Source of the DNA: a virus
IMG/VR virus record: IMGVR_UViG_3300003690_002313
Coordinates: 1 to 26,915 of that record
Length of the DNA stretch: 26,915 bases
Reading direction: 5' to 3' (one strand)
Below, in pieces: positions 8,243 to 14,689 of this stretch (position 1 is the stretch's first letter; each line of letters begins with the position of its first letter). The notes under the pieces were generated by a model. It was not told the DNA's origin and made no database searches. It was given only the letters and a program-made list of their open reading frames with translations. The translations under genes and the position numbers were made by a program.

Positions 8243-9364
8243 TTATTCTTTATCTACGTCGTAGAAATCCTTAGCGCTACCCTCGCGTGTATCAAACTTA
8301 CGAATGATCTCTTCATCCATAATTTCAAACACCCGGTTCTTGAACTTCTTCTCTTTAAGTTTGTCGGTCCAATGAGCGCTCTGGAACTTCTCTTCAGTTC
8401 CGTCCTTGTGGACCAGCGAGAACCATGCGCCTGCTTGTTTTAGATTGTCGGAGCCTTTAATGGCTTCCAGCCAACTCTCTTGGTCCTGAATGCCAACCGC
8501 GTCGGTGCCCCATAGAATTTTAAAAGCACAGTTGCGTCCTTGCGTTCCGAAGCGAGACTTCTCAAGCTTGACCTTTACCTCGGAGCCGATGCGAAACCGC
8601 GCTTCGTCTTCAATGAAAGCGGACTTGGCCTTACGGCCAGTCAACCAGATGCGAAGAGAATATACATAGTGCATCGCCTTTCCGCCTGGGGTAATGTAGG
8701 GTGTCGTCATTGCGACGATGCGGGCGTTCGGTCCCTGTGGGATGTTGGTCTTTAACTGGTTAAGAACCAGGAAGGCTGACTTTGTGTTGGCGATCGGAAT
8801 AGTCAACTTAGACATTCCCTTTGATAAAATGCGAGCTTTCATTGCCATCGTAGATTGAGGATTGAAATCTCCCTCCACATCTGTAATGGTTGGGGTCATA
8901 GCTAGCGAGTCCCAAATGAACAAGGTTCTTTCGGTTCCAGAGTTTAAAACACTCTCAACAGTCTCTAGAACGTGCTCAACAGATTGGGCTTGCACATAGA
9001 TAAGCTCATCCAAATTGCACCCCGTTCGTTCTAGGAATCCTGGGTCAATCGCTGACTCTGAATCCATATATATCACTGTCATGCCCATCTTCTGGGCGTT
9101 GCCTGCTACTTGCGCAGCCATAAAAGATTTACCGGTTGATTCTAATCCTGCAATCTCTGTAAACTTGCCAACAGGCACGCCCCCAAGTTGTCCCCTACAA
9201 ACAATAGAATCCAGCCAGCGCGAACCGGTTGGAATCCACTCTTTTACTTCAGTTGGATTTGCTTTCTTAAGATTGTGCGCTACATCAAGACCGGATGTTT
9301 TGTTGATAAGCGTTCGAAGCCCATCAACTGATATTTTTCCTGCCTTTGATTTGCTCTTAGCCAT
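8243..9364 (-). CDS. RecA/UvsX-type strand-exchange recombinase
   Basis: The 373-residue protein has the RecA core: Walker A GLESTGKS (73-80), Walker B TLFIWDSLA (147-155), and the DNA-binding loop region following LVLNQLKTNIPQGP (199-212), matching RecA's IFINQLR. A basic start (MAKSKSKAGK) precedes the core, and an acidic C-terminus (KDFYDVDKE) ends it. It should form filaments on single-stranded DNA and drive recombination-dependent replication and repair, as UvsX does in T4. The ATG follows the upstream stop directly (TAAATG) without a visible Shine-Dalgarno sequence, so translation is probably coupled. Its partner, a gp32-like ssDNA-binding protein, lies three genes upstream. Confidence 0.93.
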   Translation of the reverse strand: MAKSKSKAGKISVDGLRTLINKTSGLDVAHNLKKANPTEVKEWIPTGSRWLDSIVCRGQLGGVPVGKFTEIAGLESTGKSFMAAQVAGNAQKMGMTVIYMDSESAIDPGFLERTGCNLDELIYVQAQSVEHVLETVESVLNSGTERTLFIWDSLAMTPTITDVEGDFNPQSTMAMKARILSKGMSKLTIPIANTKSAFLVLNQLKTNIPQGPNARIVAMTTPYITPGGKAMHYVYSLRIWLTGRKAKSAFIEDEARFRIGSEVKVKLEKSRFGTQGRNCAFKILWGTDAVGIQDQESWLEAIKGSDNLKQAGAWFSLVHKDGTEEKFQSAHWTDKLKEKKFKNRVFEIMDEEIIRKFDTREGSAKDFYDVDKE

Positions 9365-9892
9365 TTAGTTATTAAGAGTTAGCGTTCCGTTAACAGTTTC
9401 AACCGAAACATCAAATCCACTAACCAGAGAATCTGCTGTAGCTAACGAAAAAGTATTCTTCTGATTCTCTAGGTCGTAAAGATCGCCGGCTCGAACTCGA
9501 ACAGTAGTTGAAATCTCGCACCGACCGCGCTTATAATCATATTGCTCCGTAGAATACTCCACTGAATATTCATTGTCATAAATGGTGCTCACCAGTACAT
9601 CTGTAAGATATTCCTCAAACCATCCTTCACGATCATACTCATCAAGTGCGCCATTAGAGCGCATTTCGCTTACAATATCAGAATGTTCACTCGGGGTACC
9701 CCACTCTGAATAAACGCGTACCCCCGAGGCCAGGAGTCCCGCCAAAAGACTAACGGTATCCGTTTCGGACACCGTCTCTTCCACGTGACTTTCCTTAATG
9801 TGCCACACATCTGCTCCCTCGTTATAACTGAGAGTTAAATAATCATCGTCGTCGACGTTTAGTTGCCGTAGCGTATTTACAATATCGCCCAT
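9365..9892 (-). CDS. Unassigned acidic protein between Hc1-like and recA genes
   Basis: This 175-residue protein matches no family I recognise. It is strongly acidic (for example NVDDDDYLTLSYNEGADVWH near residues 11-30), has no membrane segment, and its C-terminal half looks like beta strands (CEISTTVRVRAGDLYDLE, FDVSVETVNGTLTLNN). The middle (REGWFEEYLTDVLVSTIYDN) is probably helical. The ATG has AAGGAAC about 8 nt upstream, and a conserved RNA hairpin lies 27 nt ahead (9920-9943). It sits among DNA-binding genes, so an accessory role in recombination or replication is possible but not shown. Confidence 0.7.
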   Translation of the reverse strand: MGDIVNTLRQLNVDDDDYLTLSYNEGADVWHIKESHVEETVSETDTVSLLAGLLASGVRVYSEWGTPSEHSDIVSEMRSNGALDEYDREGWFEEYLTDVLVSTIYDNEYSVEYSTEQYDYKRGRCEISTTVRVRAGDLYDLENQKNTFSLATADSLVSGFDVSVETVNGTLTLNN

Positions 9893-9919
9893 TTTTAAGT
9901 TCCTTTTCTATATTAATTT

Positions 9920-9943
9920 GAGACCCCTGTATCCCCGGGCCTC
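9920..9943 (-). promoter_or_regulatory. Intercistronic RNA hairpin, copy A
   Basis: In the minus-strand transcript GAGGCCC pairs with GGGTCTC (7 bp, one G-U) around a 10-nt loop GGGGATACAG. It begins 17 nt after the Hc1-like stop and ends 27 nt before the next ATG. A matching element lies at 10169-10193. There is no T-run, so it is not a simple terminator. Confidence 0.6.
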
Positions 9944-9960
9944 CCTGCGGCTGGCAGAGT

Positions 9961-10149
9961 TTAACCTGCGTTCTTGTTCTCTTGAACCTCGAGGCGAAGC
10001 TCCTGTGCTAGGGTCTTCACTTCCTGCATTGTCTTACGAACCCGGGTTCCGGCAGCATTGTTTCCGTTGCTGAAGAACTTGTCGTGATCGTCTCGAGTTC
10101 CCTCGAGTAGTGCAATCAGTTGTTCTAGACGATTTGTATCAGTAGTCAT
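9961..10149 (-). CDS. Histone H1-like (Hc1 family) nucleoid-associated protein
   Basis: The 62 residues match short Hc1-type proteins: a helical start (RLEQLIALLEGTRDDHDKFF), then GNNAAGTRVRKTMQEVKTLA, whose GNKAAGxRVRKxxQxLK pattern is the family signature, then AQELRLEVQENKN. Hc1 proteins were first described in Chlamydia, where they compact DNA; short relatives occur in Bacteroidetes and elsewhere. This copy lacks the long Lys/Ala tail of chlamydial Hc1 and is only mildly charged. It could bind phage DNA or RNA. ATG with AAAGGAAG upstream; it follows the ssDNA-binding gene and is flanked by two related RNA hairpins. Family assignment is from remembered pattern. Confidence 0.7.
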   Translation of the reverse strand: MTTDTNRLEQLIALLEGTRDDHDKFFSNGNNAAGTRVRKTMQEVKTLAQELRLEVQENKNAG

Positions 10150-10168
10150 AACTCTTCCTTTCTAAAGT

Positions 10169-10193
10169 GAGACACCTGATAACCCTGTGCCTC
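10169..10193 (-). promoter_or_regulatory. Intercistronic RNA hairpin, copy B
   Basis: In the transcript GAGGCAC pairs with GTGTCTC (7 bp, one G-U) around an 11-nt loop AGGGTTATCAG. It begins 16 nt after the stop of the ssDNA-binding gene and ends 19 nt before the Hc1-like ATG. Relative to copy A the middle pair of the last three changes from C-G to A-U on both sides, so pairing is kept. Confidence 0.6.
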
Positions 10194-10209
10194 CCTGTGG
10201 GGGGGATTC

Positions 10210-10980
10210 TTAAAGAGCGCCAAGCTCCGCGAAAGCAGCATCGACGGCGTTAGCTTCGCCGTCTGCGGACTTACCATACTTTTCGGTTTCGCTACTAACC
10301 GATTCAGGATCGTCAACTTGTGCATTGACAAACATATCAAGAATAGTCTGTACGTCGTCAGTTGTCTTTCGCTCAAACAAACCAGTAAAATCTGGGATGC
10401 TGTCGAGAAGCTCTGCGCACTTATCAGGCGTCAGGTCCTCGCATAGCGGGGACGATCGGCGTCGAGGCACAAGCTTCGTCTGGGGGAAGGAAGCCCCTGG
10501 CGGCTTCCCGTAAGTCATCTGAAGGTCGGTGCCGGTTTCGGTGTCGGTGATGTCACCATACTCCGGATTCAGCACGAGAGTCAGAAGATTCTCGTAGGCA
10601 GTCTTGCCATATCCCCATACACGCACACCCTTTTCTTCCTCGCCGCGAACCATCACGGGGCTGAAGAAACGCTGTCGCACGAAGAGGGACTTTGCGACCT
10701 TCTTGCTGTGCTCATCGTTATTGTCTGCGCCTTCACGCCATAGCTGTGAGGCAAACTCACATACAGGACACTCGTCGCTGTAGTTGCGCTTGGGACATAG
10801 AAAACCGCCCTTCTCAACATTGTAGTGAAACCACATTTCCTTGAAGGGGTCTCCGTCCGCTGTTGGAACGATTCTAATAGTCTGGTCGCCGTCTACAGGG
10901 CGCCAGAAAGTGTCATTTGAGTTACCGTCTCCACGTAATGACGAGAGCTTGTCTCTCATCTTATCTAAGTTAATACCCAT
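10210..10980 (-). CDS. Single-stranded DNA-binding protein (T4 gp32-like)
   Basis: The 256-residue protein has gp32 architecture. A basic N-terminal segment (LDKMRDKLSSLRG) could serve cooperativity. The OB-fold core carries a zinc site, His52 with Cys62, Cys71 and Cys74 (FLCPKRNYSDECPVC), in the same order as gp32 His64-Cys77-Cys87-Cys90. The C-terminal tail is acidic and flexible (DDPESVSSETEKYGKSADGE). It should coat ssDNA at the fork and recruit helicase or recombinase through the tail. It is a little shorter than gp32 (301). ATG with AAGGAG 7 nt upstream. An internal promoter in the preceding gene (11223-11250) may give extra expression, as expected for a protein needed in bulk. Confidence 0.85.
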   Translation of the reverse strand: MGINLDKMRDKLSSLRGDGNSNDTFWRPVDGDQTIRIVPTADGDPFKEMWFHYNVEKGGFLCPKRNYSDECPVCEFASQLWREGADNNDEHSKKVAKSLFVRQRFFSPVMVRGEEEKGVRVWGYGKTAYENLLTLVLNPEYGDITDTETGTDLQMTYGKPPGASFPQTKLVPRRRSSPLCEDLTPDKCAELLDSIPDFTGLFERKTTDDVQTILDMFVNAQVDDPESVSSETEKYGKSADGEANAVDAAFAELGAL

Positions 10981-11871: not shown

Positions 11872-12191
11872 TCGTCTTCAACCCACTCTAGGATGAACCC
11901 CAGATCAAAGCCGCCGTGGCTCACACGCTTTGCGGTCGCTTCCGCTAGAATTGTATGCTCGTGAATACCAAGCCGATGGCAAAGAAAGTTCATTATTTCC
12001 ATAATGTCGGCAGCTTCTTCGGCGCACGGATTCTCTACAAACTCCATCACTTCTTCTTGCAATTTTCGCATAGAATAATCCTTGAGGCGCTCGCCATGCT
12101 CTTGGCGTATGCCAAAGTCCTTTCCCGATTCTTGAATGATCTCTGGAATCCGGTCGCGGACGAGCTTGTGATATAGCTTCTTCTGTTTCAT
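11868..12191 (-). CDS. MazG-like nucleotide pyrophosphohydrolase
   Basis: The 107 residues match the all-alpha NTP pyrophosphohydrolase superfamily. The start YHKLVRDRIPEII is typical of phage and bacterial members. The metal-binding acidic motifs follow as KLQEEVMEF (43-51) and CAEEAADIMEI (56-66), then a Lys/Gly-rich end KRVSHGGFDLGFIL. Family members split NTPs or dNTPs to monophosphates and pyrophosphate. Phage versions may clear unusual dNTPs or dampen alarmone signalling, but the substrate is not evident here. The ATG overlaps the polymerase stop (ATGA) and the GTG of the next gene overlaps its stop. A promoter lies about 60 nt upstream inside the polymerase gene. Confidence 0.8.
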   Translation of the reverse strand: MKQKKLYHKLVRDRIPEIIQESGKDFGIRQEHGERLKDYSMRKLQEEVMEFVENPCAEEAADIMEIMNFLCHRLGIHEHTILAEATAKRVSHGGFDLGFILEWVEDE

Positions 12192-13375
12192 AGTCTCAGT
12201 TCCTTCATTTCACCAAGGCTTCTCCCCGCGGAGACGTTAACCTTGAACATATCATACCGCGTCTTCTTGAAGGTGTCAAGCAAATTTAAAATTTCATAGC
12301 GATCTTCCTCAGCGAGGTCGATGTACACTGCATCATGAATAAGAAACGAAATGTGGCTTTTTCTCCCCTTCAAAAGTTCATACACTTTATGTGCTTGCTC
12401 ATGCACCATGTCAATTGTGGTGCTTTGAACGATATAGTTAAGAGCGTGATGCTCGTCTACATTCTCTATTATTCTACCATAATCTGTCTCGATTTTACAG
12501 CCATTCCAGTACTTATTTCGCACCAAATCCTTGTTATATAGATGCTCTAAGTCCTTGTTTTTCTTGCTCGAATAGAGCCATGCGAAGGTCTTCTCCTTGG
12601 CACGCTCCCGGGTCACTTTGTTGTCAAAAACATTCTTTACATTCCAGTCGTGAATATCATTTTTGGGTTGTTCTTGTCCGGAAAGCGCCAGCAACACCCG
12701 CAACTCCGCTGCATTGAAATCAAGCTCCACGAGCCAGTCGTTCTTTGGTTTAATACACGCGCGGAACTCCTTGTTCATCGTAAGGATTGGAAAGCTGTTA
12801 GGGTTTGCCGCCAAGCGGCCGGTAACAGTTCCCCATGGGTTATAGTCGCATATGTGCTTCACGGTTTGAAGAGTCCGGTGAAAGTTTTGTCCCTTTACAG
12901 AGCTTAAAAGATGACCAATAGCCCCCACATCCACGGTTAAGGGTTGCGAACGAATACTCGAAAGCATCTCCACCAGGTCATACATGAAGTCATAGTTGGC
13001 TGGGCGCTGGAGCGTATCAAAAACATGCTGGGTGATCCTGTTTTTAGCCTCCAAGTATTGAAACAAGAAATACTCGGGTACCGCGTCATATAAACAGTTT
13101 TCTTCCAGCGATAGACACGCCGTTCTAAAGGCTTTCACACACGCTCTGAGCGTCTTCTTAATCTCCGACCACTCCTGCCTCATGTCTTCGGGACAAACGT
13201 CTGTAAGAGTCGCTCCCTGCGTGTAAATGCGGGCAATTTCGTATGCCATCCCGGATAGGTGTGGAGAGTAATCCCACGTTTCCCCTTCCAGCGGAGGCTT
13301 GGACCGGGCATTAATCAAATTAGCGGCATAGTAGCCACCACATTCGGTATTTGAATCTAAAACCTGAAACAGCAA
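12188..13375 (-). CDS. Family A DNA polymerase, polymerase domain only
   Basis: The 395-residue protein has the three palm/finger motifs of Pol I: motif A VELDFNAAELR with Asp219 and Glu224; motif B with Arg256, Lys260, Phe264 and Tyr268 in the spacing RxxxKxxxFxxxY; and motif C FLIHDAVYID with His347-Asp348. TVTGRLAANP (183-192) is the conserved TGRLSSxxPN segment. The glutamate that normally follows the motif C aspartate is alanine. There is no 3'-5' exonuclease domain; about 180 residues precede the core, far less than in full-length Pol I (928) or T7 polymerase (704). Split family A polymerases are known in far-T4 phages, so the exonuclease may be a separate gene outside this window. TTG start with AGGGAG 5 nt upstream. 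Confidence 0.9.
   Translation of the reverse strand: MLFQVLDSNTECGGYYAANLINARSKPPLEGETWDYSPHLSGMAYEIARIYTQGATLTDVCPEDMRQEWSEIKKTLRACVKAFRTACLSLEENCLYDAVPEYFLFQYLEAKNRITQHVFDTLQRPANYDFMYDLVEMLSSIRSQPLTVDVGAIGHLLSSVKGQNFHRTLQTVKHICDYNPWGTVTGRLAANPNSFPILTMNKEFRACIKPKNDWLVELDFNAAELRVLLALSGQEQPKNDIHDWNVKNVFDNKVTRERAKEKTFAWLYSSKKNKDLEHLYNKDLVRNKYWNGCKIETDYGRIIENVDEHHALNYIVQSTTIDMVHEQAHKVYELLKGRKSHISFLIHDAVYIDLAEEDRYEILNLLDTFKKTRYDMFKVNVSAGRSLGEMKELRL
12251..12279 (-). promoter_or_regulatory. Sigma70-type promoter upstream of the MazG-like gene
   Basis: Minus-strand TTGACA (12279-12274), a 17-bp spacer and TATGAT (12256-12251; 5 of 6). It is embedded in the last codons of the polymerase gene. The predicted start, about 12244, is about 53 nt before the MazG-like ATG. 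Confidence 0.6.
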
Positions 13376-13384
13376 AAGTGCTCC

Positions 13385-14689
13385 CTAATAAAGCTGTTGA
13401 GTGATCGACCCAACTGTACTTATTTTACCTGTTCTGATCTGGTTGTCAAGGTTTTTAAATACATTTTCATTTATTAGTGGATAATCAATCCCATAAATAT
13501 AGTCGCGATAGATTAGGTTAATATATTCTACTACATTTTCAAGTCCGGATAATTCTTTATCTGGACGAAGCTCGTAAATCGCCGCTAGCTCATTTTTGAG
13601 CTTCATTGTGATTTGAAATGGCTCTGCTGCCTCCAAGCTGCGTAAATTGAGATACAAATCTGTCATATATTTATCACTAAGTATCTCCTCAATAGCCGTG
13701 GGTCCGGGCGCCCGATTATGATTTACTAGATATGACTTATCACATTTGGCTTTATAAACGCGCTTTTCATAAAGCGGGTTGAGTACAATATATTGATTAT
13801 AGGAATTAAGCAGAAACATCTTCAATATAGGAATGTCAATCATGTGAGCATGTTCATAATAATGATCAAAAAAGTTAGTATCATCCACCGGATCGCCTTC
13901 TGAGGTATTATACTGTGCTATATACTTCATAATAGAGTCTGAGAATAAATCAGCCGTAAGAAGCCATGGCATATTTTTATTAACAGTAAACCCGTATTTT
14001 TTAGCGCAGCGTATATAAAAGATAAAGTTAGGATCTGAAATATATTTCTCATATTTATACTCGTCACGATCGAAGGGGCCCTGGTCAACAGCCACACACA
14101 AGCCCGAGCTAAAAATATCTATAGCGCTAGAAAGAGTATAGTTGGCAAGCGTGATTGGAATCGTGGGGGCCACTTCCTGAAGATATTCAACATATAATTC
14201 TGTAAAAGTTCTAAAATCTTTTATCTTGTCCGTAAATCGCGGGTATACCTCGGTAAAAGATTCATAAACTATATTTAGAAATTTCTTATAATGATGAAGA
14301 GAGCTATTATGGCCACGTTTAGCGCGCACTTTTGTCATCTTTTTGTTACCAGTAGGATTGGAAACCCCTATTATCGTTGCGTTAGCCATATGTTGGCTAA
14401 ACGCATCAAAGGCATCCGCCACAAAGTCTAACAGATATACATCTGGTCGTTCTGCATATCTAGGAACTTTAAGGCGATTTTGCTTTAAACTAATAGTGTT
14501 TTGTACCCTGTCAATCTTCCCATAGTATTGTTTGTCATACCAAGTATCAAGAGGTGCAAACACGCGAGTAGGATATATCTTTTCTTTATAAAGGAGCCTT
14601 TGATAATACATTGCCAACGACGCCAAGCCATTGTGGCCGCCGGGGGCCCTTAAATCGGCCGCTCTAAATTTAATAGGGGGTGCTGCCAT
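13385..14689 (-). CDS. Unassigned protein at the boundary of tail and replication modules
   Basis: The 434 residues match no family I can name. The protein is soluble-looking, rich in Tyr, Asn and Lys (for example IDIPILKMFLLNSYNQYIVL near residues 287-306), without signal peptide or transmembrane segment. It follows a baseplate gene by 26 bp and precedes the family A polymerase by 9 bp, so a virion role is favoured by its neighbours upstream, though a replication role is not excluded. Base composition is more AT-rich than the adjoining baseplate gene. The ATG has no strong Shine-Dalgarno sequence; the motif CTATTTAAAA (14700-14691) sits directly before it. Confidence 0.75.
   Translation of the reverse strand: MAAPPIKFRAADLRAPGGHNGLASLAMYYQRLLYKEKIYPTRVFAPLDTWYDKQYYGKIDRVQNTISLKQNRLKVPRYAERPDVYLLDFVADAFDAFSQHMANATIIGVSNPTGNKKMTKVRAKRGHNSSLHHYKKFLNIVYESFTEVYPRFTDKIKDFRTFTELYVEYLQEVAPTIPITLANYTLSSAIDIFSSGLCVAVDQGPFDRDEYKYEKYISDPNFIFYIRCAKKYGFTVNKNMPWLLTADLFSDSIMKYIAQYNTSEGDPVDDTNFFDHYYEHAHMIDIPILKMFLLNSYNQYIVLNPLYEKRVYKAKCDKSYLVNHNRAPGPTAIEEILSDKYMTDLYLNLRSLEAAEPFQITMKLKNELAAIYELRPDKELSGLENVVEYINLIYRDYIYGIDYPLINENVFKNLDNQIRTGKISTVGSITQQLY
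13422..13449 (-). promoter_or_regulatory. Sigma70-type promoter upstream of the family A polymerase
   Basis: Minus-strand TTGACA (13449-13444), a 16-bp spacer and TAAAAT (13427-13422; 5 of 6). It lies in the 3' end of the 434-residue gene. The predicted start, about 13415, gives a leader of about 40 nt with the AGGGAG ribosome-binding site. It would separate replication genes from late tail transcription. Confidence 0.55.

Follow-up and report, generated by a model that had tools for sequence, protein, structure and literature searches.

A conserved pseudoknot element predicted at cistron ends in uncultured phages

The stretch of DNA analyzed here (the window) is a 26.9-kb fragment of a virus from IMG/VR, carrying on its minus strand a gene block with two intercistronic hairpins. 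The block comprises ssb, encoding a gp32-like ssDNA-binding protein (10210..10980; PF08804, E 8.7e-15; phrog_1192), a 62-aa Hc1-like gene (9961..10149; PF07432, E 1.2e-21), a 175-aa gene without a Pfam or PHROG match (9365..9892), and a uvsX/recA-like gene (8243..9364; PF00154, phrog_97), which closes the block and has no copy of the element described below before it. As given in a preliminary description, the hairpins lie at 10193-10169 (GAGGCAC/GTGTCTC) in the ssb/Hc1-like gap and at 9943-9920 (GAGGCCC/GGGTCTC) in the gap between the Hc1-like and 175-aa genes, each with a CAGG on its 5' side; the stem of the first starts 16 nt past the stop codon at 10212-10210 and ends 19 nt ahead of the ATG at 10149, and that of the second starts 17 nt past the stop codon at 9963-9961 and ends 27 nt ahead of the ATG at 9892. 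This observation of two hairpins is correct yet incomplete, having missed a third strand. Comparison with related phages shows that both represent a single conserved element, about 37 nt long, that folds as a compact H-type pseudoknot: in each, the CC directly preceding the hairpin on its 5' side is paired with a GG in the loop.

In the numbering used here (columns 1-37) the element consists of a 7-bp stem, S2 (columns 12-18 with 30-36), and a 3-bp helix, S1 (columns 4-6 with 20-22), which joins the bases immediately 5' of the hairpin to the loop. Copy 1, after ssb, spans all 37 columns at 10168..10204 on the minus strand and scores 60.2 bits with covariance model R1 and 55.5 bits with R2. On the evidence of covariation in relatives, its 5' S1 strand, CCC (columns 4-6; 10199..10201), is predicted to pair with the GGG inside the loop (columns 20-22; 10183..10185), and the S2 arms are GAGGCAC (columns 12-18; 10187..10193) and GTGTCTC (columns 30-36; 10169..10175), four of whose seven pairs covary. 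Copy 2, after the Hc1-like gene, lies at 9919..9954 on the same strand (56.2 bits with R1, 54.6 bits with R2), with S2 arms GAGGCCC (9937..9943) and GGGTCTC (9920..9926), likewise supported by covariation in relatives, a 5' S1 strand GCC (9949..9951) and, from sequence comparison, a 3' S1 strand GGG inside the loop (9933..9935). This copy is an exception at pair 4-22, where G9951 stands opposite G9933, so only the two Cs are pairable and its S1 has two of the three pairs.

Judged from the window alone the hairpin pair is only weakly unusual: the bare stem pattern GAGGCN{10,20}GTCTC gave at least two matches in 9 of 100 shuffles of the window. Single-sequence folding energy, computed with a program that models no pseudoknots, did not single out copy 1 (z about 0.1-0.2) and gave z of -1.6 to -2.0 for copy 2. 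The significance of the two sites comes instead from the covariance model built from relatives, which scores them at 60.2 and 56.2 bits against 9.1 bits for the best other site in the window. The preliminary description had named a lack of further copies and of conserved pairing in related phages as grounds for rejection; scans of the window with R1 and R2 found no copy beyond these two, but in relatives the pairing is strikingly conserved.

The comparison drew on 227 motif calls, of which 223 remained after removal of four false ones (three overlapping, one in L328); seven copies with inserts or long loops were left out of the alignment, A3. Across 123 distinct copies, 99.9% of 1107 pairing cells, two S1 pairs included, hold a pair, versus 92.2% in shuffles. 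Both sides change at four S2 pairs (12-36, 13-35, 17-31 and 18-30) and at two S1 pairs. Pair 4-22 occurs as AU, CG, GC, UG and UA, being formed in 85 of 97 distinct 22-mers (44% in shuffles) and, when distinct S1/loop combinations are counted, in 40 of 45, where 10,000 shuffles averaged 18.8 and peaked at 30. A longer S1 was rejected, columns 3-23 pairing below chance (28/72, mean 33.0) and the register 3-22 at chance. Several loci (L331/L121, L332, L342, L349, L351 and L365) have an additional complete hairpin within the pseudoknot loop of their first or last copy, and there the S1 strand and the final AG are retained.

The S1 helix was further examined by a forward test, in which IMG/VR was scanned with a pattern that required C at column 21 but placed no constraint on the 5' strand of S1: all 38 distinct matches have G5 and C6, and all 38 pair at 4-22. 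With column 21 set to G, CC stands at columns 5-6 in all 78 distinct matches listed, and the same pattern scan with A or T at this column returned no matches. Among the 116 distinct matches listed for the two classes (G21 and C21), which come from related and hence not independent contigs, 4-22 is paired in 114 (shuffles: mean 50.2, maximum 69) and the other two S1 pairs are matched in 116. Because most of S2 was prescribed by the patterns, as was the purine strand, these scans bear on S1 and say little about other variants of the element. The gene strand of 84 distinct stem-loops contains 44 G.U and 0 A.C cells; this wobble asymmetry and the covariation together show that selection acts on the transcribed RNA strand. 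The earlier proposal of selection on RNA structure, made from a single compensatory exchange, is in this way strongly supported. Covariation also disposes of a candidate reading as a hidden Shine-Dalgarno sequence or a GGAG site for a RegB-type nuclease, which was rejected because columns 12-13 vary together with the bases they pair with, giving GGGGGG or GGAAGG forms.

The placement of the element was assessed from 258 SSB frames, of which 157 remained once identical ssb ends had been removed, the 157 locus rows including some fragments (L203 on the minus strand and the second rows of L227 and L340). In 80 close relatives defined by SSB homology, the element directly follows ssb in 76 and follows an inserted gene in four, and one to four copies occupy successive gaps of the block. 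The first copies of these relatives, like window positions 10199-10205, show a run of about seven Cs (sometimes CCCCTCC) just before the element; it is kept at first copies even where a gene has been inserted after ssb and is missing from later copies. From the stop codon to C5 the median distance is 9-10 nt in every group, and among the matches listed that have a clear upstream frame 74 of 81 lie 5-15 nt past its stop. The distance to the next start is more variable, this codon usually lying about 17-33 nt beyond the element. Such anchoring might suggest action on a ribosome that has just terminated, with the element aiding release, stopping scanning into the next gene or promoting re-initiation, and by the usual size of the ribosome footprint S1 would begin about where the leading edge of the terminating ribosome lies. 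We give this reading little probability, as it predicts neither the replacement by terminators nor the G-poor tail described below, and no slippery site was seen at the stop and no long read-through or frameshift frame was found. A stimulator of read-through or frameshifting was rejected in its own right because the extension frames are generally short, with a median of about 20 codons in each of the frames.

The element is not specific to ssb. Of the 116 matches listed, 43 come after ssb, 38 after a different frame (100 aa or longer) and 26 after a frame of 40-99 aa, some of which are probably not genes; nine have no frame within reach. The 38 non-ssb frames of at least 100 aa among these matches form 19 sequence clusters, and some of them are insertions into the ssb block. 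Within the C21 class, ssb lies upstream in three cases, another gene in 25, a short frame in four and none in six. An AAA ATPase and a Cas4-like exonuclease are among the other upstream genes, most of which have no family match. Phage contigs bearing the element span about 35% to 72% G+C. Large records reached through ssb or Hc1 relatives contained strong copies in 34 of 34 cases, and those reached through chance pattern loci a weak match in one of four; in a second set of large records 21 of 29 had a match, and one of these, the 181-kb G039, contains a further copy some 41 kb away. Most large records have the element almost exclusively in a single block, that of ssb.

These distributions bear on the suggestion, made in the preliminary description, that the hairpins serve autoregulation in the manner of T4 gp32. 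A broader form of this idea would have SSB or another phage protein bind the knot and spread into the next ribosome-binding site, repressing the downstream genes. The invariant nucleotides of loop and stem and the G-poor tail would suit such an operator, as would the T4 precedent, where the pseudoknot is likewise followed by an unstructured stretch (PMC3014915). However, the window has no copy upstream of ssb, the element is anchored to the upstream stop rather than to the downstream start, many copies lie after genes other than ssb, and ordinary terminators replace it in sister phages with the same SSB family, leaving gp32-style autoregulation unsupported and the operator reading in general decidedly unlikely. 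The gene 32 pseudoknot of T4, T2 and RB69 resembles the element in being H-type and linked to a phage ssb, but, as that source describes it, belongs to the 5' leader, while the element has a different sequence and follows the stop of ssb or of other genes; this difference in position itself makes autoregulation of ssb through the element unlikely, though SSB may still control downstream genes.

Sequence comparison indicates that in distant relatives intrinsic terminators have repeatedly taken the place of the element after ssb. Among 80 distant SSB relatives the element comes after ssb in 45 loci and after an inserted gene in six, 15 have a classical terminator without the element, one locus is truncated, and 13 fit neither rule. 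Inspection by eye of these 13 found irregular copies in four (L297, L319, L344, L351), GC hairpins with short U runs in three (L281, L335, L345) and other long hairpins in six (L302, L316, L326, L340, L341, L343). The last six lie within the first ~110 nt after ssb, where relatives have the pseudoknot or a terminator, and four of them (L302, L326, L340, L343) have a C run in the loop. On an SSB tree of 104 of the 148 proteins, thinned by identity, built by a quick method and open at half of its inner branches, 10 changes are required to account for the terminator label, of which starred branches force five or more; on this tree the short-U hairpins of L281, L335 and L345 were labeled by hand as terminators and L344 as the motif.

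The sequence beyond the element is also distinctive. The first 8 nt after it are nearly free of G. In AT-rich phages this tail is U-rich, with a T fraction of 0.46 over 195 copies, whereas 301 control gaps gave 0.26 at the corresponding distance; for this difference, as for the spacing, p-values are too small because related contigs are not independent. In the GC-rich contigs of the C21 class the tail is C-rich and not U-rich; at the first copies of close relatives, copy 1 of the window among them, T is barely enriched (0.29 vs 0.23). The element could be a leaky intrinsic terminator with a pseudoknotted hairpin, the transcript being released in the tail without other factors. Its exchange with classical terminators at the same place, the U tract in AT-rich phages and seven loci that score as terminators through the motif's own hairpin and tail all speak for this, but the C-rich tails of the C21 contigs and the near-lack of U enrichment in window-type first copies indicate that intrinsic termination is not the whole story, and the conservation of sequence is far above what a terminator needs. 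As a sufficient account it is thus unlikely. Terminators of T4-type phages (PMC2988022) are similarly found after ssb with a GC-rich stem, and share the U tract with the element of AT-rich phages, but differ from it in that the element is pseudoknotted, is conserved in sequence and has no U tract in GC-rich contigs.

Alignment of relatives supports the fold, the transcribed strand, the anchoring to the stop codon and the repeated exchange with terminators, and the role that we infer from these as most likely is definition or protection of the 3' end of the upstream message. The particular form favored here, at slightly less than an even chance, is that the element defines and protects the end of the preceding cistron by stopping exonucleases and, in some phages, by leaky termination as well. 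A pseudoknot anchored to the stop codon of the preceding cistron would halt 3'-to-5' exonucleases entering from ends generated a short way downstream, within or past the G-poor tail, and in AT-rich phages the U tract after the knot could contribute to leaky termination. Expression of the upstream gene would in that case exceed that of its downstream neighbors, and inserted genes would be insulated by the element. With usually only ~17-33 nt to the next start, the element should not be a complete block unless there is a promoter inside the upstream gene. This 3'-end reading would explain the anchoring to the stop codon, the terminator swaps, the unrelated upstream genes and the G-poor tail, and makes RNase processing, which the preliminary description had offered as an option, or 3'-end formation at the element plausible. 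Against it stand the C-rich tail of the C21 contigs, the near-absent U enrichment at window-type first copies and the confinement of the element to the ssb block in most large records. It also leaves the invariant nucleotides unaccounted for, as a plain barrier would not need them; these suggest a specific binder.

A precedent for such a barrier is the E-hairpin of galE in E. coli, which blocks 3'-to-5' digestion at a cistron junction (PMC9239205). The galE hairpin and the puf intercistronic stem-loop, to which that paper refers, resemble the element in that they sit downstream of a stop codon in the gap separating two cistrons, at a site where the upstream message may acquire its 3' end, but are plain hairpins of single operons, in contrast to a pseudoknot conserved in sequence across many phages; the blocking of exonucleases shown for galE would be carried over to the element by analogy. 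The STAXI motif (PMC2864571) also consists of repeated pseudoknots near ssb and other DNA-handling genes, but its copies are in tandem and often have UUCG tetraloops, whereas those of the element are separated by genes and have no UUCG loop; no STAXI row was returned by Rfam at gathering score for the window or at E up to 10 for three stretches. The PeSL cassettes of T4-like phages (PMC4503421) are stem-loops in intergenic gaps of a region where genes come and go, and in this they are like the element, which differs in usually occupying one block per genome and in its conserved pseudoknot. In PeSLs an early promoter is joined to the stem-loop; a scan for promoters other than phage-specific ones found no promoter-like match on the minus strand of either window gap.

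The region between ssb and uvsX is an insertion spot for accessory genes (L024, L031, L046, L215, L223, L226, L233, L314), which usually have a copy of the element on both sides. The families found between copies are LAGLIDADG_2, a GHKL ATPase and a sulfotransferase, with weaker matches, below the cut-off, to GmrSD_N and AIPR. An inserted gene tends to carry a copy at its own end, which fits cassettes that need their own 3' element. The same observations could be taken to mark a boundary at the DNA level, a hairpin or repeat where genes are inserted or shuffled: accessory genes lie between copies, one of them a LAGLIDADG homing endonuclease, and extra genes are accompanied by extra copies. The wobble asymmetry and covariation, however, place selection on the transcribed strand, and the loop type differs between copies at different positions of one block, making this a very improbable primary function; even under RNA-strand selection the element could act as an accidental patch of homology, recombination between repeats being possible as a side effect.

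A small riboswitch or other ligand-binding RNA might equally be a compact pseudoknot with invariant nucleotides, but is hardly probable at all for an element that is anchored to the ends of unrelated genes, is present in up to four copies in one block and matches nothing in Rfam. Searches of Rfam 15 gave no match at gathering score (window) nor at E up to 10 (three stretches) other than chance-level rows, one of which, to the DUF2815 RNA (E 1.7), partly overlaps copy 2. In named phages (50,697 records) blastn with six motif variants returned nothing or chance rows; the best, in SP6-like phages, was discarded as it falls inside the RNA polymerase gene where annotated and reaches at most 12.6 bits. 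Microcystis phage Mel-JY01 has a syntenic SSB-RecA pair with an 8-nt gap lacking the element. A literature search, with limited coverage of subscription papers, found no report of the element. The element matters as a structure established by covariation, unmatched by any Rfam 15 family, that many uncultured phages carry where their genes end. As a possible generalization, though one less likely than not, it may represent an unrecognized, widespread class of cis-acting phage RNA, a modular pseudoknot that tags cistron ends. A single factor in common, from host or phage, would read it, and it would move together with accessory genes and determine how strongly the operon beyond each gene is expressed. 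Control of 3' ends by the element, if real, would explain how these phages could obtain abundant SSB but less recombinase from a single operon and how the block takes up new genes, and the natural swaps of element and terminator provide matched pairs for asking what the element does.

In bacterial genomes the pattern scan yielded 11 stretches, with convincing copies, three in number, only in L365 (DQKQ01000158.1); a match in L356, at 31.4 bits, was rejected as it lies inside a coding frame. L365 is a 5.6-kb contig binned as a Flavobacteriales MAG, on which no ssb frame was seen; its three copies, on the minus strand at 447-1131, surround a cold-shock-domain gene and a small gene that is also found in the ssb block of other phages. 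Elsewhere in the window, at 12188-14689 on the minus strand, a DNA polymerase A match is confined to one 395-aa frame, the adjoining 434-aa frame having no Pfam or PHROG match, and the polymerase may be split across frames.
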